Positions 21,817 through 37,568 of a DNA stretch of 37,683 bases are shown here, piece after piece. This stretch comes from an uncultured Verrucomicrobiota bacterium (GTDB lineage: Bacteria; Verrucomicrobiota; Kiritimatiellia; RFP12; UBA1067): the NCBI GenBank assembly GCA_945834475.1, contig CAMAHK010000001.1:82175-119857 (forward strand), written 5' to 3'. Below the pieces are notes generated by a model that was not told where the DNA came from, did not search any database, and saw nothing but the letters and a program-made list of their open reading frames with translations. The position numbers and the translations under genes were made by a program. Numbering within the stretch: the stretch's first letter is position 1; each line of letters opens with the position of its first letter.

Positions 21817-22194
21817 ATGAAGAGACTGATGATGTGTGTTGTGCTGGCGCTGAGCCTTTGCTCGTTTGCTAAGGAAGCTAATCTCACGGTCGTGCGCAAT
21901 CCACCGACGACGGTGATGCGTGAGTGGACGCCGCTTTCGCTGACGCTGATCTCGCCTGTCGCATTGCCGCCAGGCAACTGGGATGTCTACGGCCTTCAGG
22001 CCGGTGGCTTCAGCTGGGCGGAAAACGTCGTGGGTGTGCAGGCCGGCTTCTTCAATACGGCCGACATCGTCAAGGGCCTTCAGATCGGCGGCATCAACGT
22101 GACGCGTCAGATGTATGGCGTGCAGATCGGCCTCATCAATGTGATCCAGGATAACGACATCCCGTTTCTCCCGGTCATCAATTGCTACTTCTGA
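21817..22194 (+). CDS. Secreted GLQxG/GVQxG surface-repeat protein (LA_2272-like)
   Basis: A 125-residue protein with a signal peptide (MKRLMMCVVLALSLCSFA). Residues about 55-115 are repeats of roughly 12-16 residues: VYGLQAGGFSW, VVGVQAGFFNT, VKGLQIGGINV, MYGVQIGLINV. This G-[LV]-Q-x-G pattern is typical of the LA_2272-type surface repeats, short beta turns thought to lie in or on the outer membrane. GAAAGGA precedes the ATG. Function unknown. It leads a run of envelope genes ending in lpoB. Confidence 0.75.
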   Translation: MKRLMMCVVLALSLCSFAKEANLTVVRNPPTTVMREWTPLSLTLISPVALPPGNWDVYGLQAGGFSWAENVVGVQAGFFNTADIVKGLQIGGINVTRQMYGVQIGLINVIQDNDIPFLPVINCYF

Positions 22195-22211
22195 ACATGA
22201 AAAGGAGTGTT

Positions 22212-23270
22212 ATGACGATGAAGATGCTGATGGCGGCGGTGATTGCAGCGATGGCGTTCGGGGCTGTGGCTCAGGAGTTCTCGCCGAAGAAGGTGGCGGT
22301 GTTTGTTCAGAATCGGACGAAGGTCGCCGGGATGGACGATGAGATGGACGGCATTCGCGACCGTCTCGCGGCAGCGATCGCGGGGACGGGCGAGCTGGAG
22401 GTCGTTGATTCGGCTTTCTCGGTCGACACGTTCCGTCGGTGGAAGATTACGACGGCCGAGGAAAAGGCGGGGCTCGTCTCCGGCATCTTCACGGGCGGTT
22501 CCGCGCCGAATGTCGCGAAGATGCTGGGCTGTGACTACATCGCGGCGGCGACAGTTGTCGGCGCAACGGCGATGAATCGTAACATGAACGGCCGTCTCGC
22601 CAAGGTCTTCACCCTGCGCATGACGCTCAAGGTGATGGACGCGACGGGCGCAAGCGTGTTCGCGATGCCGCCGTGGACGCGGCAGTATCCCGTCTTGGAT
22701 GCGACGGACGAGCCGATCAGCTACTACAACATCCTCATCGACCAGTGGAGTGAGGAGGCCGGCACGGCGGTCGCGAACAGTTCGGCGAAGTGGCGCAAGC
22801 CGAATCTGCCGACGGCGGCGCTGGCGACTGTTCATTTCGCGACGACGATTGATGAGACGATCGCCGAGCTCGAAAGCCAGACGAAGGGCGCGACGGGCGA
22901 GCAGCTTGTCGAACTTCGTCGCGTCTGCGGCGGTGCGTCTGTCGAGATCGACGGCGCGGTCATCGGGTCCGCGCCAGGCGATTTCAAGGTCGCGCCAGGG
23001 CTGCATCAGCTCAAGGTTTCGCGCGAGTGGATGAAGCCGTATGCGGCGACGATCAACGTGACGGACGGTATGGTGCTCAAGGTCGCACTCGAGATGTCGG
23101 AGGAAGGCCTCGCGAAGTGGGGCTCGACCGAGGCACTCCGGGCGGATCTGGCGAAGCGTTATGCTGAGGCGGCGATGACGCGCGGCATTAAGGTGAACTA
23201 CAATCTCGACACGTCGAACTGGCAGGATGTCTCGACCGGCGTCCCGACCCAGAACGTCATCCTGAAGTAA
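22212..23270 (+). CDS. Secreted CsgG-like protein with PEGA domain
   Basis: A 352-residue periplasmic protein. The signal peptide is MTMKMLMAAVIAAMAFGAVAQ. Residues about 25-180 start KKVAVFVQNRTKV and read like a CsgG/TolB-type alpha/beta domain (MLGCDYIAAATVVG). Residues about 235-290 form a PEGA domain (ASVEIDGAVIGSAPGDFKV, then PGLHQLKVSREW). CsgG-related proteins accompany LpoB and YcfL in several genomes. GGAG at 22204-22207 supports the ATG at 22212 or 22218; the ATG at 22197 would give a longer form. Four bases separate its stop from the next start. Confidence 0.7.
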   Translation: MTMKMLMAAVIAAMAFGAVAQEFSPKKVAVFVQNRTKVAGMDDEMDGIRDRLAAAIAGTGELEVVDSAFSVDTFRRWKITTAEEKAGLVSGIFTGGSAPNVAKMLGCDYIAAATVVGATAMNRNMNGRLAKVFTLRMTLKVMDATGASVFAMPPWTRQYPVLDATDEPISYYNILIDQWSEEAGTAVANSSAKWRKPNLPTAALATVHFATTIDETIAELESQTKGATGEQLVELRRVCGGASVEIDGAVIGSAPGDFKVAPGLHQLKVSREWMKPYAATINVTDGMVLKVALEMSEEGLAKWGSTEALRADLAKRYAEAAMTRGIKVNYNLDTSNWQDVSTGVPTQNVILK

Positions 23271-23274
23271 GCCG

Positions 23275-24588
23275 ATGCGCAATATCCTTTACAGGCTCGG
23301 AGTCCCTCTTCTAGTCGCCGCCGCAGCGGGCTGCGTGACGATGGATGAGGATTCCGAGAAGGCCGTTGCGGCGCTACGGATTGGGCAAACCGAGATGGCT
23401 CTCCAATGGAGCGAGGAACTTGCTCGGGAAAGCCATTACACGAAGCGCCTGGGCGAGGTCGAGGCCGCGCGCGTCAATATGCTTTTGGGCCGTCTTTCGC
23501 AGGCGGAGACTTGGTATCGCCGGGCGATAGACCAAGCGATTGATCGTAAGGAGGCACAGCCGAAGATTAAACTCTCGGATGTCGGCAACGAGGTTCTGGC
23601 CGGTACGGTGACTGACGACCGTACGCGCGAGTATGTGCTGTCACCGTACGAACTCAATCTGGCACTGGAGTACGCGATCCTCACGCAGGAAGCTCTCGGG
23701 AAACGTGAGGACGCGCTGGTTGACGCGCGTCTTGCGGTTTACGTGCAGGACAATCTCGCGGAAACCTACGGAGCTGACGTGACTAAGGCCGAAGCTTCGG
23801 CATCCGCAACGGCGAAGGGCATCTGCGACGATTCGATGAAGTCCGTGACCGACCTAATGGCGGAAACGCGCAATTCTTGGGAGAATCCCGTTCTGTGGTG
23901 GCTCACGGGCGTCCTCTTCGAGGCGAATGGTGAACGCGATTTCGCCTTGCAGAGCTATCGCAAGGCGGCGGCGATTCGCGGGGATAACCCCGTCTTCGCG
24001 GCGGATGTCGCGCGGCTTGAGGCGAATAAGCCGATTGCAGAAACGGAAGGCCGCGTTGTGTTTATCTGCGGCGAGGGTTTTGTCGCGGGACGCCACTCGC
24101 TCAAGGTGCCCGTGCCGCTTTATACGGCGATGTCTATCGACATTCCGTTTTACCGCGATGCGTCGTACACGCCGCGGACGGTGATGATCGGCGAAACGGG
24201 CCTCCCGGCTTCGGCGGCGTCGCCGGCCATGAACATTCAGTCCTTGGCCTGCCGTGACCTCAAGGATCATCTGCCGGGCATCGTCGCGCGCAACCTGACG
24301 CGGGCGGCGACCGCAGCGGCGGCACAGGCGGCCGTCAATCATGCCGGGAACGATTACGCGAAACTTGCGGTGCTGGCGGCGAATGCTGCGGCCATGGCCT
24401 TTCGGCGGGCGGATACGCGTTGCTGGCGGACGTTGCCGCTCGGCGAGCAGGTCTGGAGCGCAACCGTGGCACCGGGCACGCATGAGTTCAATGTCAGTTT
24501 TGGCGAAAAGATTCAAGTCGTGAAGCTGGATCTGAAACCCGGCGAGACGAAGATTTTGTATGTCAACGGAATGGAGTACAAACAATGA
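23275..24588 (+). CDS. COG3014-type TPR lipoprotein
   Basis: A 437-residue lipoprotein: signal peptide with lipobox LLVAAAAGC, so Cys19 or so would be lipidated. Residues about 25-250 are helical TPR-like pairs (MALQWSEELARES, NMLLGRLSQAETWYRRAI, DALVDARLAVYV, ALQSYRKAAAI). The C-terminal part contains PVPLYTAMSIDIPFYR, an alanine-rich helical stretch and a beta-rich end (FNVSFGEKIQVVKLDLKPGETK). This arrangement matches the COG3014 family found next to ycfL and lpoB in gammaproteobacteria. It overlaps ycfL by ATGA. It likely sits in the periplasm with the LpoB system. Confidence 0.78.
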   Translation: MRNILYRLGVPLLVAAAAGCVTMDEDSEKAVAALRIGQTEMALQWSEELARESHYTKRLGEVEAARVNMLLGRLSQAETWYRRAIDQAIDRKEAQPKIKLSDVGNEVLAGTVTDDRTREYVLSPYELNLALEYAILTQEALGKREDALVDARLAVYVQDNLAETYGADVTKAEASASATAKGICDDSMKSVTDLMAETRNSWENPVLWWLTGVLFEANGERDFALQSYRKAAAIRGDNPVFAADVARLEANKPIAETEGRVVFICGEGFVAGRHSLKVPVPLYTAMSIDIPFYRDASYTPRTVMIGETGLPASAASPAMNIQSLACRDLKDHLPGIVARNLTRAATAAAAQAAVNHAGNDYAKLAVLAANAAAMAFRRADTRCWRTLPLGEQVWSATVAPGTHEFNVSFGEKIQVVKLDLKPGETKILYVNGMEYKQ

Positions 24589-24992
24589 ACAAGATTAGTC
24601 TTCTGGCGGCGCTCCTGGTTGGAGCCGCCGGGTGTGTCGAAACCGCGGGAACGCGGGTGACCTTGGATACGCGCACGGGAGAGGCGTCCGTCCTCGAATG
24701 CTCGACGCGCCTCTCGAATCGGTTGAAGGTCGTGCGTGCGACGTATAGTGATGCGAGTGAGGGCATCAAGCGGGCGACGGTGACGGTTGCCTCAGATACG
24801 CACAAGCGGCAGGAGCTTCAGGCCCGTATGGTCTGGCTGGACGAAGACGGCGCGGAGATTGATGCGGATGCGAAGTCCTTCCGCGCAATCGTGCTGGATG
24901 GTATGGATACGACGACCATTACGGGTGTCGCACCGAACTCCCGCGCGGTGTCGGTGAAGCTTCAGGTCCGCGAGACGGATACGGCGCAGTGA
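24585..24992 (+). CDS. ycfL: YcfL-like lipoprotein (DUF1425)
   Basis: A 135-residue small lipoprotein with signal and lipobox LLAALLVGAAGC. The mature part is a single beta-sandwich-like domain (LSNRLKVVRATYSDASEGIKRA, LQARMVWLDEDGAEID, TTTITGVAPNSRAVSVKLQVRE), which is the DUF1425/YcfL layout. It lies between COG3014 and lpoB, the same order seen in gammaproteobacteria. Family assignment rests on this context as much as on sequence. Confidence 0.72.
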   Translation: MNKISLLAALLVGAAGCVETAGTRVTLDTRTGEASVLECSTRLSNRLKVVRATYSDASEGIKRATVTVASDTHKRQELQARMVWLDEDGAEIDADAKSFRAIVLDGMDTTTITGVAPNSRAVSVKLQVRETDTAQ

Positions 24993-25038
24993 TTCGCAGT
25001 CGGCAATGAGTGGTTTGTGACTAGTAAAGGAAGCTAAA

Positions 25039-25635
25039 ATGAACAAGGTTTTGATGATTGGTGTGGCGGCAGTGGCCGCTTCGGTTCTGTCGGGTTGCGC
25101 GACGACGCAGGCGCGCGAGACGCAGTTGGATCGCAAGGCGATGTCCGCCGCGCTGGAGCCGCAGGATGTGCGTCGGACTGTCGAGAAGATGGTCGATTCG
25201 ATGCTCGCGGACCAGGACTTCATCGCGGAGATCGGTGGGAAGAAGCCGGTTCTCGATGTCTCGGGGATCCAGAATCGTTCGACGATGCACGTCGATATGG
25301 CATCGATTACCGATTCGATCCGCACGAAGCTTCTCCGTTCGCGTAAGTTCCGCTTCATGGATCGCACGAATGCGGCGGAAGACCTGCAGTTTATGAACGA
25401 TCAGGCGCTCAACGGTTTGACGGACCAGAACAAGGCGGTCCGCGCCGGTCAGCAGTCCGCCGCGCAGATGTACCTTTACGGGGCGCTCACGGAAATGCGT
25501 CAGCAGGTCGACGGCGTGACGGACCGCTACTACAAGTTCACGTTGAATCTGAAGGATCTCAAGTCGGGCGAGCTCGTCTGGTCTGACGAGCAGGAGATCC
25601 GCAAGGAACAGACGAAAAGCGTCATGGGCTTCTGA
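25039..25635 (+). CDS. lpoB: Penicillin-binding protein activator LpoB-like lipoprotein
   Basis: A 198-residue outer-membrane lipoprotein (lipobox SVLSGCATT). In E. coli LpoB reaches through the peptidoglycan to activate the synthase PBP1b. The mature domain starts after a short linker: DVRRTVEKMVDSMLADQDF, PVLDVSGIQNRSTMHVD, LLRSRKFRFMDR, YLYGALTEMRQ and YKFTLNLKDLKSGELVWSDEQEIRKE, all standard for the family. A good SD (AAAGGAAG) precedes the ATG. No PBP1 gene is in the window. Confidence 0.88.
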   Translation: MNKVLMIGVAAVAASVLSGCATTQARETQLDRKAMSAALEPQDVRRTVEKMVDSMLADQDFIAEIGGKKPVLDVSGIQNRSTMHVDMASITDSIRTKLLRSRKFRFMDRTNAAEDLQFMNDQALNGLTDQNKAVRAGQQSAAQMYLYGALTEMRQQVDGVTDRYYKFTLNLKDLKSGELVWSDEQEIRKEQTKSVMGF

Positions 25636-25683: not shown

Positions 25684-25770
25684 CTAGAATCTGTCTTCAT
25701 AGTCCCAGCCGAGAAACTTCTTGAAGCCGCAAATTAAGGACAAGGTCAAGAACAATTCATAATCGTTCAT
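25684..25770 (-). CDS. Micro-ORF 2, 28 residues, overlaps micro-ORF 1
   Basis: On the minus strand an ATG at 25770-25768 overlaps the stop of the preceding micro-ORF (ATGA). The 28 codons run MNDYELFLTLSLICG and end KKFLGWDYEDRF before TAG at 25686-25684. It has a short hydrophobic N-terminal half and a charged, aromatic C-terminal half. No known family. Support comes from coupling, position behind the CaCA antiporter and a clean frame; the size is too small for statistics. Confidence 0.45.
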   Translation of the reverse strand: MNDYELFLTLSLICGFKKFLGWDYEDRF

Positions 25771-25856
25771 TTCCCGTCGACTAGGCGGCCGAGCAGGCAC
25801 ATGCCGAGGACGAGAAGGATGTCGAGGGCGACGATAACGCAGAGTCGTAGAATCAT
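25767..25856 (-). CDS. Micro-ORF 1, 29-residue predicted single-helix membrane peptide
   Basis: Minus-strand ATG at 25856-25854 with a strong SD (AAGGAG at 25868-25863, 6-nt spacer), only 22 nt after the CaCA stop. The peptide begins MILRLCVIVALDILL and continues VLGMCLLGRLVDGK, one hydrophobic helix with an Asp in the middle and basic ends. It overlaps micro-ORF 2 by ATGA. It may be a regulatory or accessory subunit of the antiporter; that is inference. Confidence 0.6.
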   Translation of the reverse strand: MILRLCVIVALDILLVLGMCLLGRLVDGK

Positions 25857-25877: not shown

Positions 25878-26816
25878 TTAGAGCCAGGTCAGAAGGGCGT
25901 AGGCCAGGAAGCCCAGCAGCAGAACGGCGCCACGCCAGCGTGTGAGCCGCCGCGTGAAGAGAAGTGTGGTTATGGCAAAGAGAAACGGCAGATCTCGCGA
26001 CAGGATTTCTGGCGCAGCGTGGTCAAGCGGATGCAGCGCCGCGCTGATGCCGACGACGGCGAGCATATTGAAGAGGTTGGAGCCGAGGATGTTGCCCAGG
26101 ATGAGATCGGTCTGCCGACGGCGAAGGGCGACGATCGAGGTCGTGAGCTCGGGGAGTGACGTGCCGGCGGCAACGACCGTGAGGCCAATCACAAGTTCGG
26201 GCACACCGAGCTGTCGCGCAATCGTTTCCGCGCTCCAGACGACAAGAGCGGACGAGCCAAGTAGCACGGCAAGTGAGACGGCCAGCGGCAGGAGACGTCC
26301 GTCAGAGGATCTTTCAGGCGTTGTTGCGGGAATGGCATTGCGTGCGTCACGACGCAGAAGGGCGAAGACATAGATTGCAAAGAGGACGAGCAACAGGATT
26401 CCGCCGAGACGGGTCACGCCGTGGCAGAAGGCGAGGATTGCGGCGGAAATCAGCGTTACCGCGAGGAGAACCGGCAGGATGCCGTGACGGATACGCGGTT
26501 TGATGCGGAGTGGATGGATGAGGGCGAGAAGGCCGAGAATGACGGCGATGTTGTAGCTGCACGATCCATAGGCGTTGCCGAGCGAAAGGTCAGCGTGGGC
26601 GTCGAGCGCGGAAAAGACCGAGACCGTCAGTTCGGGCAGAGATGTGCCGAAGCCGACGATGACGATACCAATCAGAAAGGGTGACATCGAAAGGCGCCGG
26701 GCGAGTCCGACGGACTCGTCAACAAAACGCTCAGAGCTCCATCCCAAGAGAAGGAATCCTCCGGCAAGAGTCAGCGCGGCCTCCCAGATGTTGAATTCGG
26801 TCAGGGTCGTTGTCAT
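25878..26816 (-). CDS. Calcium/sodium antiporter, CaCA family (YrbG-like)
   Basis: A 312-residue inner-membrane cation exchanger with about ten hydrophobic helices in two inverted halves. The two alpha-repeats are GFGTSLPELTVSVFSAL with GNAYGSCSYNIAVILG, and AAGTSLPELTTSIVAL with GNILGSNLFNMLAVVG; the GTSLPE acidic residues bind the cation in this family. The first repeat has GSCSYN where most have GSNIFN, which may alter selectivity. The ATG at 26816 is preferred: an upstream frame to 26975 runs over a -10 box and lacks hydrophobic pattern. Two micro-ORFs follow downstream in the same direction. Confidence 0.92.
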   Translation of the reverse strand: MTTTLTEFNIWEAALTLAGGFLLLGWSSERFVDESVGLARRLSMSPFLIGIVIVGFGTSLPELTVSVFSALDAHADLSLGNAYGSCSYNIAVILGLLALIHPLRIKPRIRHGILPVLLAVTLISAAILAFCHGVTRLGGILLLVLFAIYVFALLRRDARNAIPATTPERSSDGRLLPLAVSLAVLLGSSALVVWSAETIARQLGVPELVIGLTVVAAGTSLPELTTSIVALRRRQTDLILGNILGSNLFNMLAVVGISAALHPLDHAAPEILSRDLPFLFAITTLLFTRRLTRWRGAVLLLGFLAYALLTWL

Positions 26817-26994: not shown

Positions 26995-28167
26995 ATGAAG
27001 ACGACTTATTGGCAAGACTGCAGCGTCGCCTACAAGGACGAGCTTTTGAACAACATCATGCCGTTCTGGATGAAGCACGGCTTCGACAAGAAGAACGGCG
27101 GCGTGTACACGTGCGTCGACCGTGACGGCACGCTGATGGACACGACGAAGTCCGTCTGGTTCCAGGGCCGCTTCGGCTGGATGACGGCCTACGCGTACAA
27201 CCTCGTGAAGAAGGACAAGAAGTGGCTCGCCGCGTCCAAGAGCTGTTGCGAGTTCCTCGAGAACCACTGCTTCGACAAGAAGGACGGCCGCGCGTACTTC
27301 GAGGTGACGGCCGAGGGCGTCGGGCTCCGCAAGCGCCGCTATGTCTTCTCCGAATGCTTCGCCGCGATCGCGTACGCCGAGTACTCGCTCGCTTCGGGCG
27401 ACAAGGCCTGGGGCAAGAAGGCGCTCGAGCTTTTCAAGCGCATCCGCAAGTTCGTCGCGAACCCGAAGAAGTACATGCCCGCAAAGTACGAGCCGACCCT
27501 CGAGGCGCAGGGCCACTCGCTCACGATGATCCTCATCAACGTCGCGAATGTCCTCAAGCAGATTTCCGATGATCCGGTCCTCGACCAGCAGATCACCGAG
27601 TCCATCGAGATGCTGGTCAAGTACTTCATCCATCCCGAGTTCAAGGCGCTCCTCGAGATGGTCGGTCCGAACGGCGAGTTCATTGACACGCTCGCGGGCC
27701 GTGTAATCAACCCGGGTCACTGCATCGAGACCTCGTGGTTCCTTCTCGACGTCGCACTCGCCCGCAAGGACGAGGCCCTCAAGGAGATCGCGCTGAAGAT
27801 CCTCGACTGGTCGTGGGACTGGGGCTGGGACAAGAAGTACGGCGGCATCATCTCGTTCAAGGACTGCCGCAACCTGTCGCCGCAGTGCTACGAGCAGGAC
27901 ATGAAGTTCTGGTGGCCGCAGTGCGAGACGGTCATCGCGACCGCCTACGCCTACAAGGTCACGGGCGACAAGAAGTACGCGAAGATGCACAAGCTCGCGA
28001 ACGACTGGATGTGGAAGCACCTCAAGGACAAGGACTATCCCGAATGGTACGGCTACCTCCATCGCGACGGCACGGTCGCCCAGCCCGCGAAAGGCAACAT
28101 CTTCAAGGGCCCGTTCCACATCCCGCGCATGCTCGTGAAGACCTGGGAACTCACGAAGGACATGTGA
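26995..28167 (+). CDS. N-acylglucosamine 2-epimerase (AGE) family protein
   Basis: A 390-residue (alpha/alpha)6-barrel sugar epimerase/isomerase. Family features are KHGFDKKNGGVYTCVDRDG, WFQGRFGWMTAYAYN, CFAAIAYAEYSLA, NPGHCIETSWFLLD with catalytic His242, KFWWPQCETVIATAYAY and KGPFHIPRML with catalytic His375. In sialic-acid catabolism such enzymes convert ManNAc to GlcNAc, which would follow NanA (19753). Cellobiose epimerases share the fold, so specificity is inference. It has its own promoter and a strong terminator, so it is monocistronic. Confidence 0.9.
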   Translation: MKTTYWQDCSVAYKDELLNNIMPFWMKHGFDKKNGGVYTCVDRDGTLMDTTKSVWFQGRFGWMTAYAYNLVKKDKKWLAASKSCCEFLENHCFDKKDGRAYFEVTAEGVGLRKRRYVFSECFAAIAYAEYSLASGDKAWGKKALELFKRIRKFVANPKKYMPAKYEPTLEAQGHSLTMILINVANVLKQISDDPVLDQQITESIEMLVKYFIHPEFKALLEMVGPNGEFIDTLAGRVINPGHCIETSWFLLDVALARKDEALKEIALKILDWSWDWGWDKKYGGIISFKDCRNLSPQCYEQDMKFWWPQCETVIATAYAYKVTGDKKYAKMHKLANDWMWKHLKDKDYPEWYGYLHRDGTVAQPAKGNIFKGPFHIPRMLVKTWELTKDM

Positions 28168-28860: not shown

Positions 28861-29164
28861 TTAGTCAATTACCATTCGCCTATTTTGACTGATGGCAGTA
28901 GAGTATCATATTCAAGCGGGGATTGCAAGTATGGCGACCGGTCGAGCGAGGGGCGGTTGTTACCGTAAGATTTGTGAAGGAGAAGAAGAAAGATTTTCTC
29001 ATGCCGGAGATTATACCACAATCAAGACCCTCACCCCCCCCGGACTGGCCATCTTCTACGCTCTCAAGAAAGCCGGCATCCTGCGCGTCAGCCCGAAGAC
29101 TGAACTCAAAGGACTCGACAGCGTTGAGCATTCCGTCCGTCCGGCATTTACATGCCACGGGCGG
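28861..29164. other. Stretch without a convincing gene
   Basis: About 300 bp between the ATPase fragment and the end of the large C25 gene. On the minus strand an ATG at 29002 follows TATAAT by 7 nt and opens a 40-codon ORF (starting MRKSFFFSFTN), which I cannot relate to anything and which may be the broken 5' end of the ATPase gene. On the plus strand a frame with TLTPPGLAIFYALKKAGILR looks faintly protein-like but has no start, SD or family. I treat the stretch as degenerate. Confidence 0.5.
29010..29018 (-). promoter_or_regulatory. Extended -10 with leaderless spacing upstream of the broken ATPase
   Basis: TGGTATAAT on the minus strand, hexamer at 29015-29010, followed by 7 nt and ATG at 29002. 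Same pattern as mazG and the gene at 37585, which suggests it was the original promoter of the now-truncated gene. Confidence 0.5.
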
Positions 29165-32100
29165 TCAGTTGCCGATTATATAGCGGATGCGGAAGAACCG
29201 TGCGCCGCCGTCGCCGTTCATGAGGATTTCGTAGTTGCCGTTGGCGTCGTTCGAGTTTTCTGTCGGCACCCAGGCGGACAGATCGCTGCTCGATTCCAGC
29301 CTGCGTTCGACCCTGATGCCGTCCGGCGGATTGACGGCGAGTTTGTCGCCGAGCACCAATTTGCCGCCATTCGTTTTAAAAGTGACAATCTCTGGCTTGA
29401 CGTTTTCGCCGATGCCCAGGGCGACGTTTTCCCAATAGCGCAAGCCGTTCGCCGCGACCGCTTGCGGGTTGCGCTTTTCGCCGGACTTTTCATCGATGAA
29501 GAGTTCGGTCGCGAAGACGACGTTTTCGATCGTGATCGTTGCATCGACCAGCTGTCCGTAAAGCTTGATATCGCCCAATGGTTCGGCTATCGTACGCAGC
29601 GCCGCGCCGGAGCAATCGGCGTTCGAGTACCAGCCGCAGAACAGCTTTCCGTTATCGCCGGTCGGCATCGGCAGCCGGAAGGGGAGTTCCGTCGTGCGGT
29701 AGAAGCTGACGCCGAGGTCGTTGCGAGTCACGCCGTCGATGACGAATTCGAGCAGGCACAAGGTCGTATCGGTCGGGTATTCGCCGGCGAACTGGACCGC
29801 GATCTTGTCCGTCGTCGCCCCGCCGTAGATGCGCAAGGCTTCGAGACAGCCGTCGCCGACTTTGTCGGCACCCACTTTGGCAATTCCCGTGCTGCCGATG
29901 CCGCCGTGCAGCGAGCCGATCTGCAGTCCGCCGCCGATCGAAGGCATGGTCGCCTCGCGGGTCCACTTGAGTTCGCCGTCGGCATAGAACTTCATCGCGC
30001 CGGCCGTGCGCGCGAGCGCGTAGGTGTGGCGCAACTGCCGCGGAAAGTGCAGCGGAACCTCCGCCCAGACTTCGTACGGCGTCGACCCGTTCGTGTGCCG
30101 CACCAGCAGCACGCTTTGGTTGTTGGTGGTGACGAGTCCGAAGCCGCCGCCGGCGAGGGTGCCGAGCATGAAGAGCGGCGTATGGTCGCCGGCGGGCATG
30201 ATGCCGGCGGCCAGCACCGTCCATTCGTCGGGGTAGGCGTAGCTGCAGTAGGGCGTGACGGCGGGGTTGAGCGCACTGCCGGTGACGTAGCCTTCGGACG
30301 ACAGGTATATGTCAGAGCCTTCTTTCGTCAGTGCGGTCGCGTTCGAGCCGGTGCTCGTGAGCGAGGTGCCGAAAGTCCAGTTGTCGAGCAGCCCCGGCGC
30401 GGTGCCGACCAGTTTGAGCGCCTTGCCGGAAAGCTGCACCACCGCCTGGCGGTTGGCGACTTCGGGCAGAGTGCCGAAACTGCCGCCGTTGATGAGCGTG
30501 TAGCCGTCGGAACCCAGGGCGCGCAGTGTCGGGCCGAAAACGATCGAACCGCTGAAGGTGGGCGTGCCGGCCGAGCAGTCGATGGTGGCGCCGTCGGCAA
30601 ATTCAATGTCCAAACCCTGCAGCGAGCCGTCGACCCGCAGCACGCCGTGCTCACCGACGAGCAGCTTGGCGTATTCGATTGTCGATTTGTTGGTGGAGGC
30701 GAAGGCGGACGCCACCCTGAAGGTGCCGCGCTCCAGGGCGATTACGCCCTCGTCGCTGACGCAGGTGGAGTAGAAATAGAAGTCGGCGTTGTCGTTCAGC
30801 GCGATCGTGAGCGTATGATTGTTGAGCGTGAGTGTCGTCTTGGTGCCGCCGTACATGAGACCAAGTCCGTCGCCCTCGAGGCGCGTATCAGCCTCGAGCG
30901 TCAATTTGCGGATGCACGTTTCGCGCTTGGCGTAGGCTGCGCCCGAGTTGCGGATCGTGCCGCCAATCGAGGTGATGTCGAAATACTTTGACGGTACGAC
31001 ATGGTTAAGGTCGAGCGTCATCCCGGCGGGCAGGGTGATGCCGGCATAGGAGTGCTTGCCGATCAGGGTCACGGTGGTGTCGGCGTTGCCGCTGTCGGCG
31101 AAGGCGTCGGATGCGCTCAGGTAATACGTTTCGCCGCGGCGGGCGAGGGCCGGCTGGCTGTCGGGGATGACCTCGACGGCGAGGTCGGTCGCGGTGACGG
31201 TGTTCGTCTGGTCGGCGATGAGCCAGGGTCCGTCCTGCTTGTAGCTGATGACGATTTCGCCGGGATACGGCACCGTGTAGGTGCCGTCGTCGTTGGCGGC
31301 GATTTCGCGTTCGGGCTCTTCGGAGACGACCGTGACGCGGGTCACGCGGATGTCGTCGGGCAGATTCGGCACGGAAAGACTGACGTACCCGCGATGGACG
31401 GTCGAGAACACGGTGACGCCCGTCGCTTCGTCCGTAGTCTCGGTCACCCGATAGTAGGGCGAATCGACCGCCGGCGGCACGAGGAACCGGCAGCCGTTCA
31501 GGCGCACGGACACGCTCTCGCCGACGGTGAGCGTGAAGGGGTCGGAGGTGTCGCAGCCGAGCGTGATCACCGCCGCGCTGTCGCCTCGCGATGCCGTGCG
31601 CGCCTCGGCGAACGATTCGTAGTTGACGGTCGTCTCGGCGCCTTCCGCATCGGTCGCGGTTACGCGCGCGGCGATCGGATAGAGCCTGCCGTCGCGGATG
31701 AACCATCCCTCGGGCGGCTCGATGTCGGCGATGACCTCGACCGTCGCACCCGATGCCGCGGCGGCGGCGATGGCGTCCGCCAGCGAATCGTAATTGACGC
31801 CGTCGACGGCGGCGACCGCGTCGGTGAAGCGTCCGTACAGCGTGAGCGCACCGCTATCGGAAGTGACGGACTTAAGTTCTGCGCCGCTATAGTCCGCCGC
31901 GGTGTACCATCCGCGGAAAACCTTGTCCGCGGCCGTTTCCGGTACCGGCAGCGCGACCGGCAGCAGTTCCGAGGCATAGGCGGCGGGCGTGAGCGTCTTT
32001 TGTTCCACGCCTTCGACCATGTAGGCCAGCGGATAGATCGCCGACACGGCGGCGCAGAACAGCGCGTCGCCGCGCTGCTCGGTGTAGAGCACGGCGCCGT

Positions 32101-35100
32101 CGGCGGCCGTCGGCGTGAAGGCGAACGCGCCGCAGGCGACGAGCGCCTTTTCGCCGAGCCGGAGCTCGACGGCGGCATCCGCCAGCAGTTCGATCGGCTG
32201 GGCGGCGTCGGGAACGGAAGCCATGGCGTCCGGGAAATCGGCATAGAAGGCGTTGCCAATGCGCGCGGCGGCGGCGAGCGTGCCGGAATTGTCGAACGAT
32301 CCGCATGTGACGACCGCGCCCGGCGCGAGGGTGGCGGTGACGCCGGAACCGATTGTCCAGGCGCCGGCGATGGCGAGGCTCGGAATCGTCGCCGGCGTCT
32401 GCGCGACGGTGAACGCATCCACCGCCGGCGTTTCGCCCTCGCGCACCACCCATGCTTCGCGCACGCGCCCGCCGGCGGTGTAGGCGACGAGCCGGTGTCC
32501 GGCGGGCACGACGATGCGGTCGATGCCGTTGATCGCGTTGGCGACCAGGTGGGCGCGGCCCTGACAGTTCAAGGTTCCAGCGATGGCGATGGCGTGGGCC
32601 GTCCATTCACCGCCGTCCTTGAGCTGCGCGACGTAGCCGCTCAGGACGTCAATGCGCGATTCGCCGGCCGTGCCCTTGCCGGCGCCGAAGACGACCTGCA
32701 TGCGCGAGTTGTTGATGCGCAGCTTGATCGACCCGCAGAATTCGCAGGCGGGGGCGCTGAAGACCATCATCTGGGAGGGAGTCACCGTTCCTGCGGCGGT
32801 GATCGTGCCGGTGCCGAATGCGTGCGGAAAGACGGTCTTCTTGTTCGAGTAGCCGTTCGTGCGCTTAAACGCCGCGCCCGAGGCGGGTTCGCGGAATTCG
32901 ACTTCGCATTCATACGTCGCGTCTTCGTTCGCGAAGTAGCCGGATACGCCGTTCAGGACGACGCGCTGGACGGTCGCGGTGTAGTCGGTGAGGTCGAGGT
33001 CGAGGTGCTGGCCGGTCAGCACCAGTTCGGCGCGGCGGCTCGGCGGGAAGACATTCGTCGCGTCGCTCGATTGGTAGACGCGCCCCGTTTCGTCGGTGAA
33101 GACGATCGCCGAACCGGCGGACGTCGGATAAGCCGCCGTGTAGCCGGCGAGAATCTGCTCGTCGGTGAGGCGGACGATGCGCTTCTGCGGCAGGCCGTCC
33201 GCGCTGAAGGCGAGATGCGGGTCGGCTTCTATGCCGGCGGCGATGCCGAACTTCGCAAGCGACGAATCGACGAGCAGCGTGCCGCCGAACTTGTCGAGCG
33301 ACCCGAGGAAGACGATCGAACCGGTCCGTTCGGCCGACGAGTCGGACAGGACGAGCGTGCCTTCCCCGCTCAATTCGCCAGACAGGACGAGGTCGCGTCC
33401 GGCGCAGTCGATATAGTTCGTCTCCGCCGCGACGGTAAGCGGCCAGGGACACGTCCAGTCCGCCGCCGCGACGATCGAGCCGCCGCCGAGGGAGATCGGC
33501 ATCGAGCCGATGCTCCCGGCGGTGTTGACCGGCCACGAGTCGACTTCGAGCCGGCCGCCTTTGGTGATCTCGATCCTGCCGTAGTCGCCCGTCTTGCCGC
33601 GCACCCAGCCGTTTTGATTGAGGGCGTCGTTGGTGACGCCTCTGACGCGCACGTAGCCGCCGCGGATGGCGAGCAGCTGTTCGCCTTTGGCGTCGTAGTT
33701 GATCAGCAGCAGCGATTGCGGCGCGAGCAGCTGGCCGCCTTGGCGGACTTCGATGGCGCTCGAACCCGCCCAGTGGCCCATCATGATGCCGGCGATATGG
33801 TTGTTCTTGAAGTCGTAGTAGACGCCCTTGGGCGAAGTCTCGCCGAGCACGTTGAGCGTGCCGGCGATGTCGAGCGTGAAGACGCTGTTGCCGTCGGAGG
33901 TGTTCAGCAGCTGCACGGCGTCGACGGTGACGGTGGTGTTTGACGGAATCACAATCGCGCCTTTCGAGCCGCCGAGGTAGGCGCCGTCGGCGAAGGTCGC
34001 GTCGGAGAGCACGCCGTTCACGTTTTCGTTGTTGAGATCGATGGTGTCGAGATTGCGGTAGGGCAGCGCCACGACGGGGAATTCGGCGGCGAGCGCGGCG
34101 ACGTCGGCGGCGGAAAGCACCGCGTCGTATCCGCGCAGCTCGCCGATCGCCATGCCGTCGGCGACGGTGCGTCCGCGCAACGCCATTTCGCGGCTGTCGG
34201 TCGAGCCGACCGAGCCGAGTCCGAAGCCGTTCTTGAGGTTGAGGGAGCCCGAAAGCGAGCCGACGAGCTCGCCGTCGACATAGAAGTCGATCGCCTCCGG
34301 ACTGCGGCAAATGGTGTAGAGGTGGTAGCCGTCGCCGGGGTAGGGAATGTAATCGGTGTAGTCGACGACGCTCGCGTTGTGGGCGCTTGTCGCTTCGAGG
34401 CGGATCTTGCCGCGTTGTCCGCGCACGAGCAGCAGCTGACTCGAGGCGTAGTTGCCGAAGCCGAGCAGGACGGCGTTGTTGTTTTCGACGCGCGAAAGAT
34501 CGGCATAGAGCGCCACGCTGAAGCCGCGCTTGGCGGGCAGGTTGAAGTAGGGGTGCTCGGTGTCGGAAACGACGCGGACGAATCCGCGCGGCGCGAGCAC
34601 GCCGGTGCGCACGGCGTTGTTGGCGAAGTTCTCGCCCGTCCAGTTCGAGAACCATCCGGTCGGGTTCGCGCCGAGCTGTCCCGAATAGCGAAACGCCATG
34701 GCGACATCGCCTTCTTCGCGCACCTCGATGTTGGCGTCCTTGTCGAAGGTGAAGTTCTTCAGCAGCGAAGTGCCTTTTGGTACGACGATCGTGCCGTTGC
34801 CGGAGAAGGTGGCGTTCAGCGATTCGGATGAAGTGACGAGCGGTCCGGCCTTGGGGTTGACGCCAATGCGCAGGGTGGCGTTTCTCATCCAGACGGAGGT
34901 GTTGCCCAGAAGATCGGGCGACTCGACGTCGACGGTGCCGCCGCGCATCTGGATGTAGATGCCGGCGGCGGCGGCGGACTTCGTGCTGCGCATGACGTTA
35001 GTGGCGTTCGCGGCGGTGTCGAAGACGACTGTCTTGAGGGTGCCGCCTTCGATGCGGTCGAAGTCGACGATCGTCCCCGAGCCGTAAACGGTGACCATTT

Positions 35101-37396
35101 CGGCGTTGGTCAGTCCGCCCAGGTAGAAACGCCGCTTAGTGTAGATCTTGACGGTACCGGCGTCTTTGGTGAAGACGAGGCGCCGGCCGATGCCGCCCTC
35201 GATGCCGTCGTTGAAGGTTGCGCTCGTGCCGCCGACCTGTAGCTCGTTCATGATCTTCAGGCGGCCCGTGCCGGAAAAAACGATGTCGCCGTCCGTCGCA
35301 GCATTGACGACGGCGTTGGTGCCGGCGTTTACGACCGCGGCGGCGAAGAGGACGTTCGAGGCGGTGTGGGGAAACTCCGCGAGCGCGGTTTCGGTACGGC
35401 AGGTCTGCGCCCGGTGGCGGATGAACGGATCGCCGAACAGAGTATGCTCGAAAAGCACCCACGCGCCGGTGTTGCCGATCGAGGTCGGCACGATGCCGCC
35501 CTGGCCGAGTGAGGAAAGGTCGACGTCGATGAATTTCAGGTGTGAGTAGAGCCATGCGTCGCCGGCGGGGAGGCCCTGGCGGACGAATGCGCGCATGAGG
35601 TTGCGCCCGAGCTTGTACGACAGCATCTCGTAGGCGGGGTTGTTGTCGCGCGAGACGCCGGCGGACCAGCCGTAGCGCGAGTTGTTGACGCTGGCGACCG
35701 CGCCGCCGTCCGGCGCGCCGACGGCCGATTCACCGAGGCAGGCGACGGTGACAATCTTGCCGGCAAGCTCGCCGGACCCGCGCGTCCAGTAATCCTGGAA
35801 GCCTGTCTCGCACGGCACCGACACGTCGTAGAGCAGTGTCAGGCCGGCGGCGTCGCGAACGCGCTGGGCGGAGAGCTGGCATTCCGCGCCGAGCGCCCAG
35901 CCATGGGCGTCGGCGACCATGTAGTCGTGGTCGGAGGCGAAGAACTTCGCCGTCGCGTCGGCCGCCGTCGGCTGGCCGACCGTCCAGGCGTAGCTGTTGA
36001 CGGCGTCGACCGAGACGATCGGATAGTTCAGGGAGATTTCGCCGCGGGCGAGCCGGCGCTGGTTGAGCTCGGTGTCTTCGAAGGTGCGCGTCTGCCGGTA
36101 CTCGGCGAACATGTTCGGCGTGTCGTCGAAGAATTCGTATTCATCGCAGAGCGTGCCGTCCACGTCGCTCTTCCAGCCGAACCGCGACCACATCAGGCCG
36201 ATGTCGCCGGTGCCGTCGAATCCGGAACCCTCGGCGCGGGCGATCTTGGCGAGTAGGTTCGTCATCTGCTCGCCAGCGGTCACGAGCCTGCCGTTCGCCT
36301 CGAGCGGCTTGAGCGGAATGCGCGCGACGACAAGGTCGGCGCCGCCGTCGTACCAGCGGCGGGTGTCGGCGTTGAAATTCTGCAGATAGCAGGTCGCCGA
36401 GTAGTCCGTATTATTGGTGCACCAGGGATAGCGCTGGGTGACGTCGTCGACGGTCATCAAATCGAGGCACGAATAGTAGGTGTCGGCCGGCAGGTGCACG
36501 TCGGGACGCGGCTGGCCGCGGACGGACGGAATCGCGTTGGTGAGGTTGACCGTTTCGCCGGTCTGGTAGCAGATGCGTTCGCCGCTCGAATTGAGCCAGT
36601 TGCCGTCGCCGTCGAGTTCAATGGGGTCGATCCAGCTGCCGCCGAGAATGAGGTATGAAAGCCCCAGCGCGTCGCGATGCTCGCGCAGGTACCGGTGGAT
36701 CGATTCGGCGGGATTGCGCGGCGTGCCGTCCGTCGCCGCCGGATCGTACGGATATTCGGCGTAGATGGACGACGTGTCCTTGATCATGAAGGCAAGGTCG
36801 GGGCGGGCGGCCGAGCGCGCGGCGACGTATTCGCGCCAGAGGTTGGTGTGGACGACCGGAGTGAGGATGAGTACGTCGGCGGCTTCTGTTTCGGCGGCGG
36901 TGAAGACGCCGAAGTCTCGCGCGAGCGCACTTGCGCCGGAGGGGACGGCGACGCCGGTTGGTGCGGCGGTGCGCGTGAGCGGAACATCCCCAGGGTTGGC
37001 GACGGCATCGCGGATCTGCCGGCGGATGACCTTGGCGGGATTGCCCGTGAAGGGCGTGCCGTCCGGAGTGAAGGTGACAGTGATTTCGTAGGCGAAGTTG
37101 GTATCCGCCACCTTGACCGGCACCAGTTCGACATGATTCATGGTCAGCGCCGTGCCGACCGTCGGCGCGGCGGACTCGCCGCCGCCCGCGGCGACGGCGA
37201 CGGCCGAGGCGAAGCGGTAGCCGTTGGGCACGGCGAAGACGAGCGCCTCCTCGGCGCCGGCCGGCTGTCTCGCGGTGCGCATGACGTTTTCCGCGCCGCC
37301 GGCGGAAAAAGCAGATAAGATTACACACGCGAGCAATGCGCACACGTGCGCGCGTTGTCTTGCGGCCATGCGGTTGGCTTTTGCGTTGGTTTGCAT
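29165..37396 (-). CDS. Giant secreted peptidase C25 (gingipain-type) protein with LamG and InlB B-repeat-like segments
   Basis: A 2743-residue exported protein. AAGGGGGA before the ATG at 37396 fixes the start, and residues about 18-35 form the signal peptide core (ALLACVILSAFSAGGA). Residues about 165-680 match peptidase C25: LSYLILGGSWIDPIE, VVARIPLKPLEANG, the probable catalytic His498 in MVADAHGW and Cys553 in TVACLGES, NNSRYGWSAG and HTLFGDPFIRH. A long beta-rich, Gly/Asn/Thr-rich region follows. LamG/concanavalin-like segments lie at about 950-1110 and 2380-2515, and InlB B-repeat-like segments (KVFRGWYTAADYSGAELKSV; KLFCGWYSNADCSG) at about 1790-1865 and 2545-2620. It ends FFRIRYIIGN. 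Likely surface-attached and proteolytic; the target is unknown. Confidence 0.88.
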   Translation of the reverse strand: MQTNAKANRMAARQRAHVCALLACVILSAFSAGGAENVMRTARQPAGAEEALVFAVPNGYRFASAVAVAAGGGESAAPTVGTALTMNHVELVPVKVADTNFAYEITVTFTPDGTPFTGNPAKVIRRQIRDAVANPGDVPLTRTAAPTGVAVPSGASALARDFGVFTAAETEAADVLILTPVVHTNLWREYVAARSAARPDLAFMIKDTSSIYAEYPYDPAATDGTPRNPAESIHRYLREHRDALGLSYLILGGSWIDPIELDGDGNWLNSSGERICYQTGETVNLTNAIPSVRGQPRPDVHLPADTYYSCLDLMTVDDVTQRYPWCTNNTDYSATCYLQNFNADTRRWYDGGADLVVARIPLKPLEANGRLVTAGEQMTNLLAKIARAEGSGFDGTGDIGLMWSRFGWKSDVDGTLCDEYEFFDDTPNMFAEYRQTRTFEDTELNQRRLARGEISLNYPIVSVDAVNSYAWTVGQPTAADATAKFFASDHDYMVADAHGWALGAECQLSAQRVRDAAGLTLLYDVSVPCETGFQDYWTRGSGELAGKIVTVACLGESAVGAPDGGAVASVNNSRYGWSAGVSRDNNPAYEMLSYKLGRNLMRAFVRQGLPAGDAWLYSHLKFIDVDLSSLGQGGIVPTSIGNTGAWVLFEHTLFGDPFIRHRAQTCRTETALAEFPHTASNVLFAAAVVNAGTNAVVNAATDGDIVFSGTGRLKIMNELQVGGTSATFNDGIEGGIGRRLVFTKDAGTVKIYTKRRFYLGGLTNAEMVTVYGSGTIVDFDRIEGGTLKTVVFDTAANATNVMRSTKSAAAAGIYIQMRGGTVDVESPDLLGNTSVWMRNATLRIGVNPKAGPLVTSSESLNATFSGNGTIVVPKGTSLLKNFTFDKDANIEVREEGDVAMAFRYSGQLGANPTGWFSNWTGENFANNAVRTGVLAPRGFVRVVSDTEHPYFNLPAKRGFSVALYADLSRVENNNAVLLGFGNYASSQLLLVRGQRGKIRLEATSAHNASVVDYTDYIPYPGDGYHLYTICRSPEAIDFYVDGELVGSLSGSLNLKNGFGLGSVGSTDSREMALRGRTVADGMAIGELRGYDAVLSAADVAALAAEFPVVALPYRNLDTIDLNNENVNGVLSDATFADGAYLGGSKGAIVIPSNTTVTVDAVQLLNTSDGNSVFTLDIAGTLNVLGETSPKGVYYDFKNNHIAGIMMGHWAGSSAIEVRQGGQLLAPQSLLLINYDAKGEQLLAIRGGYVRVRGVTNDALNQNGWVRGKTGDYGRIEITKGGRLEVDSWPVNTAGSIGSMPISLGGGSIVAAADWTCPWPLTVAAETNYIDCAGRDLVLSGELSGEGTLVLSDSSAERTGSIVFLGSLDKFGGTLLVDSSLAKFGIAAGIEADPHLAFSADGLPQKRIVRLTDEQILAGYTAAYPTSAGSAIVFTDETGRVYQSSDATNVFPPSRRAELVLTGQHLDLDLTDYTATVQRVVLNGVSGYFANEDATYECEVEFREPASGAAFKRTNGYSNKKTVFPHAFGTGTITAAGTVTPSQMMVFSAPACEFCGSIKLRINNSRMQVVFGAGKGTAGESRIDVLSGYVAQLKDGGEWTAHAIAIAGTLNCQGRAHLVANAINGIDRIVVPAGHRLVAYTAGGRVREAWVVREGETPAVDAFTVAQTPATIPSLAIAGAWTIGSGVTATLAPGAVVTCGSFDNSGTLAAAARIGNAFYADFPDAMASVPDAAQPIELLADAAVELRLGEKALVACGAFAFTPTAADGAVLYTEQRGDALFCAAVSAIYPLAYMVEGVEQKTLTPAAYASELLPVALPVPETAADKVFRGWYTAADYSGAELKSVTSDSGALTLYGRFTDAVAAVDGVNYDSLADAIAAAAASGATVEVIADIEPPEGWFIRDGRLYPIAARVTATDAEGAETTVNYESFAEARTASRGDSAAVITLGCDTSDPFTLTVGESVSVRLNGCRFLVPPAVDSPYYRVTETTDEATGVTVFSTVHRGYVSLSVPNLPDDIRVTRVTVVSEEPEREIAANDDGTYTVPYPGEIVISYKQDGPWLIADQTNTVTATDLAVEVIPDSQPALARRGETYYLSASDAFADSGNADTTVTLIGKHSYAGITLPAGMTLDLNHVVPSKYFDITSIGGTIRNSGAAYAKRETCIRKLTLEADTRLEGDGLGLMYGGTKTTLTLNNHTLTIALNDNADFYFYSTCVSDEGVIALERGTFRVASAFASTNKSTIEYAKLLVGEHGVLRVDGSLQGLDIEFADGATIDCSAGTPTFSGSIVFGPTLRALGSDGYTLINGGSFGTLPEVANRQAVVQLSGKALKLVGTAPGLLDNWTFGTSLTSTGSNATALTKEGSDIYLSSEGYVTGSALNPAVTPYCSYAYPDEWTVLAAGIMPAGDHTPLFMLGTLAGGGFGLVTTNNQSVLLVRHTNGSTPYEVWAEVPLHFPRQLRHTYALARTAGAMKFYADGELKWTREATMPSIGGGLQIGSLHGGIGSTGIAKVGADKVGDGCLEALRIYGGATTDKIAVQFAGEYPTDTTLCLLEFVIDGVTRNDLGVSFYRTTELPFRLPMPTGDNGKLFCGWYSNADCSGAALRTIAEPLGDIKLYGQLVDATITIENVVFATELFIDEKSGEKRNPQAVAANGLRYWENVALGIGENVKPEIVTFKTNGGKLVLGDKLAVNPPDGIRVERRLESSSDLSAWVPTENSNDANGNYEILMNGDGGARFFRIRYIIGN

Positions 37397-37422
37397 TGTT
37401 CCCCCTTGTTGCCACCTGACAA

Positions 37423-37466
37423 GCCAAATTGCCCCCAAGCAATTTGGCAACGGACAAATTATACCA
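37423..37466 (-). promoter_or_regulatory. Extended -10 and 5'UTR hairpin of the C25 gene
   Basis: TGGTATAAT on the minus strand (hexamer 37463-37458) would start transcription near 37451. The first bases of the mRNA form a perfect 10-bp hairpin: 37448-37439 pairs with 37432-37423 (GCCAAATTGC / GCAATTTGGC) around a 6-nt loop. The SD and ATG lie 27-40 nt further on, outside the stem. It may stabilise the 5' end of the very long mRNA or bind a factor. Confidence 0.65.
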
Positions 37467-37568
37467 AATTCAGGCCATCGCTGCGGACGTAACGGGTTGC
37501 CCATTGCCTTACCCCTAACCCCTTCGCGAACGCAGTGAGCGAATGGGATGCTAATGAGTTTCGGAATA

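Follow-up and report, generated by a model that had tools for sequence, protein, structure and literature searches.

KdpF and CydX are bacterial peptides of about 30 residues that are encoded next to their large partner, and MgtS and MntS are peptides that are induced under ion stress. According to the sections of PMC10710835 available to us, MgtS (31 aa) and MntS (42 aa) are small regulators of metal-ion transporters in E. coli, and AcrZ (49 aa) lies as a single helix against AcrB and changes its activity, so that small membrane proteins that steer transporters are known from this source for Mg2+, Mn2+ and drug pumps. In animals, phospholemman (FXYD1) is a small single-pass protein that has been suggested to act on NCX1, the direct interaction being described as debated in the available part of PMC8215385. 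In the available portions of the literature searched, such a partner was found for exchangers of animals only, and no small protein was described with a bacterial CaCA exchanger.

Here, we describe ORF1, a 29-codon frame directly behind a CaCA exchanger gene in a 37,683-nt stretch of DNA (the window) from an uncultured Verrucomicrobiota bacterium (contig CAMAHK010000001.1 of assembly GCA_945834475.1, positions 82,175 to 119,857 of the forward strand). ORF1 has homologues in which the reading frame is conserved, and its family is repeatedly linked to CaCA genes and, in many relatives, lies in an operon with genes for an ECF sigma factor and an anti-sigma-like protein.

The exchanger locus and ORF1

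The exchanger gene, ORF1 and a second short frame, ORF2, are all read from the minus strand of the window. The CaCA Na+/Ca2+ exchanger gene (25878..26816) was identified by PF01699 (E 6.8e-60) and by TIGR00367 (calcium/sodium antiporter), the curated cut-off of which (179.65 bits) is exceeded at 199.1 bits. Its product has 312 aa when counted from an ATG homologous to the starts of its relatives, an alternative 365-aa frame with a GTG start being present as well. The TAA stop of the exchanger (25880-25878) is followed by a Shine-Dalgarno (SD)-like AAGGAG (25868-25863) that precedes the ATG of ORF1 at 25856 by 6 nt. ORF1 itself (25767..25856, 29 codons plus stop) translates as MILRLCVIVALDILLVLGMCLLGRLVDGK and ends with a stop codon at 25769-25767. 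Within the ATGA at 25770-25767, this stop overlaps the start of ORF2 (25684..25770, 28 codons, translation MNDYELFLTLSLICGFKKFLGWDYEDRF), the stop codon of which ends at 25684. An initial annotation of the window had reported the hydrophobic ORF1 with its SD motif at 6 nt behind the antiporter, as well as the ATGA overlap with ORF2, and both are present as described; only the distance from the antiporter stop to the start of ORF1, given there as 22 nt, is 21 nt by our count.

Because the locus is bounded by a convergent gene for an LpoB-like lipoprotein (25039..25635, plus strand; PF13036, E 8.4e-36) and by a divergent gene for an N-acylglucosamine 2-epimerase (26995..28167, plus strand; PF07221, E 1.3e-43), the exchanger, ORF1 and ORF2 would make up one transcription unit. 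Neither a terminator-like nor a sigma-70-type promoter-like site was recognised between 25500 and 27200. On the convergent side, a plus-strand cluster (22182-25635) encoding PEGA-domain, TPR-containing (weak match), DUF1425 and LpoB-like proteins ends against the exchanger unit. Beyond the epimerase gene, a 2779-aa minus-strand frame (29165-37504) carries Peptidase_C25 (presumably of the gingipain type) and Laminin_G_3 domains, together with a Flg_new-type repeat that stays below its cut-off; Pfam gave no match for the long plus-strand frames lying over it (28892-30991 and 31001-33943), which are probably antisense artefacts.

When 61 genomes of the genus were searched with the 29-residue ORF1 sequence, six weak matches (E 0.005-0.28) were returned besides ORF1 itself. 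Five of these form one family, in which a hydrophobic helix is followed by G-[KR]-[LM]-[AV]-DGK, and the sixth, sitting inside a 497-codon frame, is not of this family. Three of the five lie directly upstream of CaCA genes, and a fourth (in genome G097) is likewise upstream of one. When the CaCA genes of the order were taken with their flanks (67 distinct loci) and short hydrophobic frames with an SD-like motif were listed, a similar short gene was found upstream of the exchanger in ten of them; frames in L008, L009 and L016, and TatA-like or anti-sigma-like frames in L038, L049 and L060, were excluded by eye from the profile of these ten. The ten-member profile, which does not contain ORF1, ranked ORF1 straight after its own members (E 8.3e-8 among 6349 frames; next E 3.7). 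Because four of the ten had been matches of ORF1, a further profile was built from six members that ORF1 had not previously matched (L003, L047, L049, L059, L060 and L071), and this profile placed ORF1 first among 1049 window frames (E 2.8e-6, with 0.13 for the second-ranked frame). With either profile, the score of ORF1 was reached by none of 10,000 shuffles (5000 whole and 5000 within-segment), in a test that kept ORF1 out of both profiles and was not fully blind, the six relatives having been listed by place, SD motif and hydropathy and then kept by eye. The match to the family profile extends across the start, the helix and the G-[KR]-x-x-[DE] stretch behind the helix. ORF1 ends in LVDGK, a charged tail being the family feature after the helix, and its relative in L240 is equally short; since that peptide also has 29 aa and ends at DGK, a reading of ORF1 and ORF2 as one frameshifted gene is not needed.

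ORF1 has its best codon-use score in its own frame (0.35-0.37 bits/codon, vs –0.37 to –1.28 when the same strand is read in the two other frames). Depending on the training genes, this score is reached by 3 of 108 or by 2 of 50 spurious small frames located inside genes; the two long plus-strand frames, probably antisense to a Pfam-supported gene, were kept out of the training. By hydropathy only, the best 19-residue mean of 2.77 is that of a membrane helix. No match to ORF1 was found in Pfam (to E 10) or NCBIfam (to E 1), and no close relative of the window locus was present in the genomes searched, the nearest exchanger being 50% identical. On the evidence of these sequence comparisons, ORF1 is a gene far below annotation limits and a member by descent of a family for which we coin the name PEP.

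The PEP family and its gene neighbourhood

PEP proteins have one predicted helix and mostly a charged tail, and the complete members in the loci have 29-57 residues. An SD-like motif precedes 27 of 31 PEP starts, the window included and L238, whose contig begins inside the gene, excluded from the tally of starts and lengths. With a 19-member profile (E≤0.001), PEP was found at 32 places in 28 of the 161 genomes of the order. An 11-row alignment matched 40 of 387 genomes of the phylum at E≤0.1, five of them at E≤3e-4 and all five from the same order, while the remaining rows were mostly short stretches of longer frames. Among 5.8 billion proteins, a 25-row alignment (E≤0.01) retrieved 107 PEP proteins, none with a Pfam domain; few carry a source name, which is then "hypothetical protein" or, once (for a 61-residue protein), that of an ion transporter. 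The records that carry the exchanger include rumen and gut Kiritimatiellae. For 11 pairs of PEP relatives that are at least 70% identical (ORF1 is in none of them, and some pairs are not independent of each other), pN/pS was 0.16-0.65, with ten pairs at 0.44 or less; by this measure, the coding frame of the relatives of ORF1 is under purifying selection. In the 99-residue protein P0068, what looks like the helix region of an anti-sigma-like protein forms the N-terminal part and is continued by a complete PEP with the same sequence as that of G036, possibly as a fusion left by a deletion.

The gene neighbourhood was surveyed in 33 loci, 31 of them with PEP, which together with the window gives 32. 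The consensus order is ECF sigma factor, anti-sigma-like, (OadG, OadB), (Na+/H+ exchanger with PTS-EIIA domain), PEP, (TatA-like), (CaCA), in which the bracketed genes are optional and no single locus need carry all. Pfam searches with examples identified the sigma factor, TatA_B_E, OAD_gamma, OAD_beta and Na_H_Exchanger. The anti-sigma-like protein owes its name to its position after the sigma gene and to its one helix, a known anti-sigma domain having been sought and not found (two proteins without a Pfam family above cut-off, one without an NCBIfam family). The sigma and anti-sigma-like genes lie on the strand of PEP in 19 of the 32 loci, the anti-sigma-like gene alone, at a contig edge, in one more, and both are divergent from PEP in one further locus. 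A CaCA gene is found beside PEP in 17 of the 32, counting the window and one C-terminal half (L236), and in the CaCA-adjacent relatives (16 of the 31 loci) PEP is upstream of the exchanger. Outside the genus of the window, where 16 loci were found by the profile alone, ten have the sigma pair and five a CaCA gene. Seven loci (L230, L231, L232, L239, L240, L245 and L246) combine the sigma and anti-sigma-like genes and PEP with none of these transporters in the 700 nt before and 1500 nt behind PEP and the rest of the stretch taken; three others (L233, near a contig edge, L234 and L243) have none of these genes on the strand of PEP. Counted over the 67 CaCA loci, PEP is beside the exchanger in only 11, most exchangers of the genus having no adjacent PEP, and a scan of further contigs gave no PEP match at any of 59 CaCA loci (best E 0.52, 8377 frames). 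Within the genus, the 11 genomes with a clear anti-sigma-like gene (E≤2.4e-11) all belong to the 14 with PEP, five more genomes having doubtful matches (E 0.002-0.009). PEP occurs without this gene in the window genome (86% complete) and in G098 (80% complete), where it was sought and not found, and at a contig edge in G036.

The anti-sigma-like proteins of L228-L255 have in common a C-terminus of the type W-x-L-L-G-x-[LF]-R-[ED]-C-[FL]-x-R, behind which basic and acidic residues follow; it is located far from the predicted sigma-binding N-terminus. A TatA-like gene lies directly behind PEP in six loci (L042, L043, L228, L241, L242 and L248), and in three of these operons OadB or the Na+/H+ antiporter precedes PEP. 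The window genome also encodes a Na+ pump elsewhere (L259, G000:C33:17000-25176), the OadB of which is 78% identical to that of G011; an OadG-like frame precedes this OadB, and a 561-aa frame that we take, by resemblance, to be decarboxylase-like follows it. A second PEP beside this pump was considered and rejected, as neither a PEP nor an anti-sigma-like match occurs there (best E 0.72).

In several loci, PEP outlasts transporter genes that have been lost. L229 has an OadB cut to a 16-residue stub beside a PEP that is still open, and in L236 an open PEP lies between a 38-residue stub of OadB and the C-terminal half of CaCA. By eye, the same is seen in L247 (= L118), with a short CaCA start behind PEP, and in L248 (= L112), with one behind the TatA-like gene, both remnants lying below the computed threshold. 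These eroded loci come from draft assemblies, and part of them could reflect errors of assembly.

In a tree of 82 CaCA proteins (from 120 rows, keeping only five of L152-L194 and excluding rows shorter than 250 aa), the window exchanger forms a group (100/98) with the exchangers of G003:C31 and G098, and each of the three has PEP; the long branch of the window exchanger makes its placement less sure. A second clade has PEP in 11 of 13 rows, both exceptions coming from G043, and one PEP row (L038) lies elsewhere. Presence of PEP changes five times on this tree, vs a mean of 14.0 when labels were shuffled, with none of 500 shuffles as low. In G003:C31 and G098, the end of PEP, which lies before the exchanger there, overlaps the start codon of the exchanger; as far as gene layout can tell, this suggests coupled translation in these two nearest relatives. 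The simplest reading is that the lineage of the window shifted the peptide gene from before to behind the exchanger, so that the order became reversed. Where the initial annotation suggested looking for the pair downstream of CaCA genes, the relatives with an exchanger beside PEP have PEP upstream of it, and no counterpart of ORF2 was found in the genomes of the genus searched.

Candidate partners of the peptide and the standing of ORF2

In the reading that we prefer, and whose chances we put at about even, ORF1, as one of the tiny and presumably single-pass membrane proteins that make up this conserved family, would bind the neighbouring exchanger to tune its activity or stability. The sigma pair would sense envelope or ion stress and would induce the peptide together with the genes for the Na+ pump, the antiporter and the exchanger. 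ORF1 would be translated from within what would be the exchanger's transcript, and its product, judged by hydropathy only, would insert as one helix, Lys/Arg lying close to the N-terminus and the charged tail at the opposite border of the membrane. This helix might then dock against the exchanger. No sigma arm was found in the window, where the peptide gene seems to have been relocated behind the exchanger; because only the exchanger remains beside PEP there, it is favoured as the partner for the window. The earlier proposal of a small regulator or subunit of the exchanger hence stands as a fair lead for ORF1, given its single-helix, exchanger-linked family, but is not supported for ORF2.

Because the anti-sigma-like gene is on the strand of PEP in 20 of 32 loci, the partner could instead be the signalling pair. 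PEP would then be the third part of a sigma/anti-sigma switch, in which it holds, stabilises or releases the anti-sigma-like protein, and the transporters would only be members of the regulon. By linkage, this alternative is nearly as well supported as an exchanger partner: sigma and/or anti-sigma-like genes accompany PEP on its strand in more loci than CaCA does (20 vs 17 of 32), genomes of the genus with a clear anti-sigma-like gene all have PEP, and seven loci have no transporter of these kinds near PEP. These seven loci, together with the survival of PEP beyond its transporters, imply that the exchanger is not the only possible partner. However, PEP has stayed beside the exchanger in the window genome and in G098, in neither of which an anti-sigma-like gene was found, and in G003:C31 and G098 PEP overlaps the exchanger start, so that we regard a role in the switch as rather unlikely. 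That PEP has no dedicated partner and acts as a general membrane peptide induced by stress, or as a toxin-like one, we consider improbable: its neighbours vary, and in length and hydropathy it resembles known stress peptides and type I toxins, but the recurrent operon with sigma and ion transporter genes, the purifying selection on the relatives and the conserved residues after the helix all speak against it.

For ORF2, no homologue was found in the 61 genomes of the genus (one match besides itself, E 0.158, 36% identity), and no match in Pfam (to E 10) or NCBIfam. By eye, the first ~260 nt behind the exchanger in the two nearest PEP-exchanger relatives contain no ORF2-like frame. When sequences were simulated, a run of at least 28 codons from a fixed ATGA arose in 27% of them with the local composition and in 42% with that of the window, and since such runs are common by chance, length and ATGA overlap alone are weak evidence for ORF2, the frame of which is open for 112 codons from stop to stop. 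In codon use, ORF2 too scores highest when read in its own frame (0.27-0.51 bits/codon, vs –0.43 to –1.15 for the other frames of this strand), a score matched by none of 108 spurious frames with one training set and by 6 of 50 with the other. Its best 19-residue hydropathy mean, 0.98, is not that of a membrane helix. ORF2 therefore remains unproven as a gene, and we lean towards it not being one. Where the initial annotation took both micro-ORFs for real genes and saw a hydrophobic pattern in them, this is upheld for ORF1 by its homology, the shuffles and its hydropathy, but ORF2 shares neither the homology nor the pattern. An RNA structure in place of a protein in the ORF2 region was rejected as well (z –0.22), as was membership of TatA/B, for which Pfam gave no match and a local TatA-like profile was equalled by 117 of 3000 shuffles (1892 reported). 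We find it very doubtful that ORF2 descends, in shortened form, from a TatA-like or anti-sigma-like operon neighbour, or that it is a young, coupled gene: it occupies the position that TatA-like genes have behind PEP in six loci, its MNDYEL start resembles the MNDDEL/MGDYEL starts of anti-sigma-like proteins, one of its first six comparisons gave 0.005 and its codon use is frame-specific, but several families were tried in these descent tests, the wider of which were not significant, and, besides the shuffles that equalled it with the TatA-like profile, others scored as high against anti-sigma-like N-termini (51 of 1500), whole anti-sigma-like proteins (215 of 1500) and the anti-sigma-like profile (351 of 3000, 1671 reported).

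Comparison with described small membrane proteins

KdpF, CydX, MgtS and AcrZ each have a curated profile in Pfam or NCBIfam, and ORF1 matched none of these families (Pfam to E 10, NCBIfam to E 1). PEP is a sizeable family (107 proteins) with no informative name, its operon points to a sodium/calcium stress response, and ORF1 itself is a conserved gene that had been overlooked despite well-known genes on both sides. We know of no MgtS or MntS beside CaCA exchangers or ECF sigma operons. To judge from the part of PMC11364881 available to us, small-protein catalogues of this kind may contain PEP sequences unnamed. In the available sections of PMC10710835, MgtS and MntS are like PEP in size (about 30-40 residues) and act on ion transporters, as PEP would, but neither ORF1 nor its relatives have a Pfam or NCBIfam match to such families. 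KdpF (of KdpFABC) and CydX (of cytochrome bd) are, like PEP, small and single-helix, and are subunits according to the accessible part of PMC10903887; they differ in family and in partner, and PEP is also found away from the exchanger. AcrZ also differs from PEP in family, and its partner is an RND pump. Phospholemman is an animal protein to whose family ORF1 has no match, and its FXYD motif is not in ORF1.

Tentatively, and at less than even chances, PEP may be a bacterial counterpart of phospholemman or sarcolipin: an ECF-sigma-controlled helix of 30-50 residues that would directly regulate CaCA exchangers, and perhaps the Na+ pump and the Na+/H+ antiporter of the same operon. The window would then hold a surviving, stripped two-gene unit of exchanger and peptide, and PEP would be the first micropeptide partner of a bacterial exchanger.
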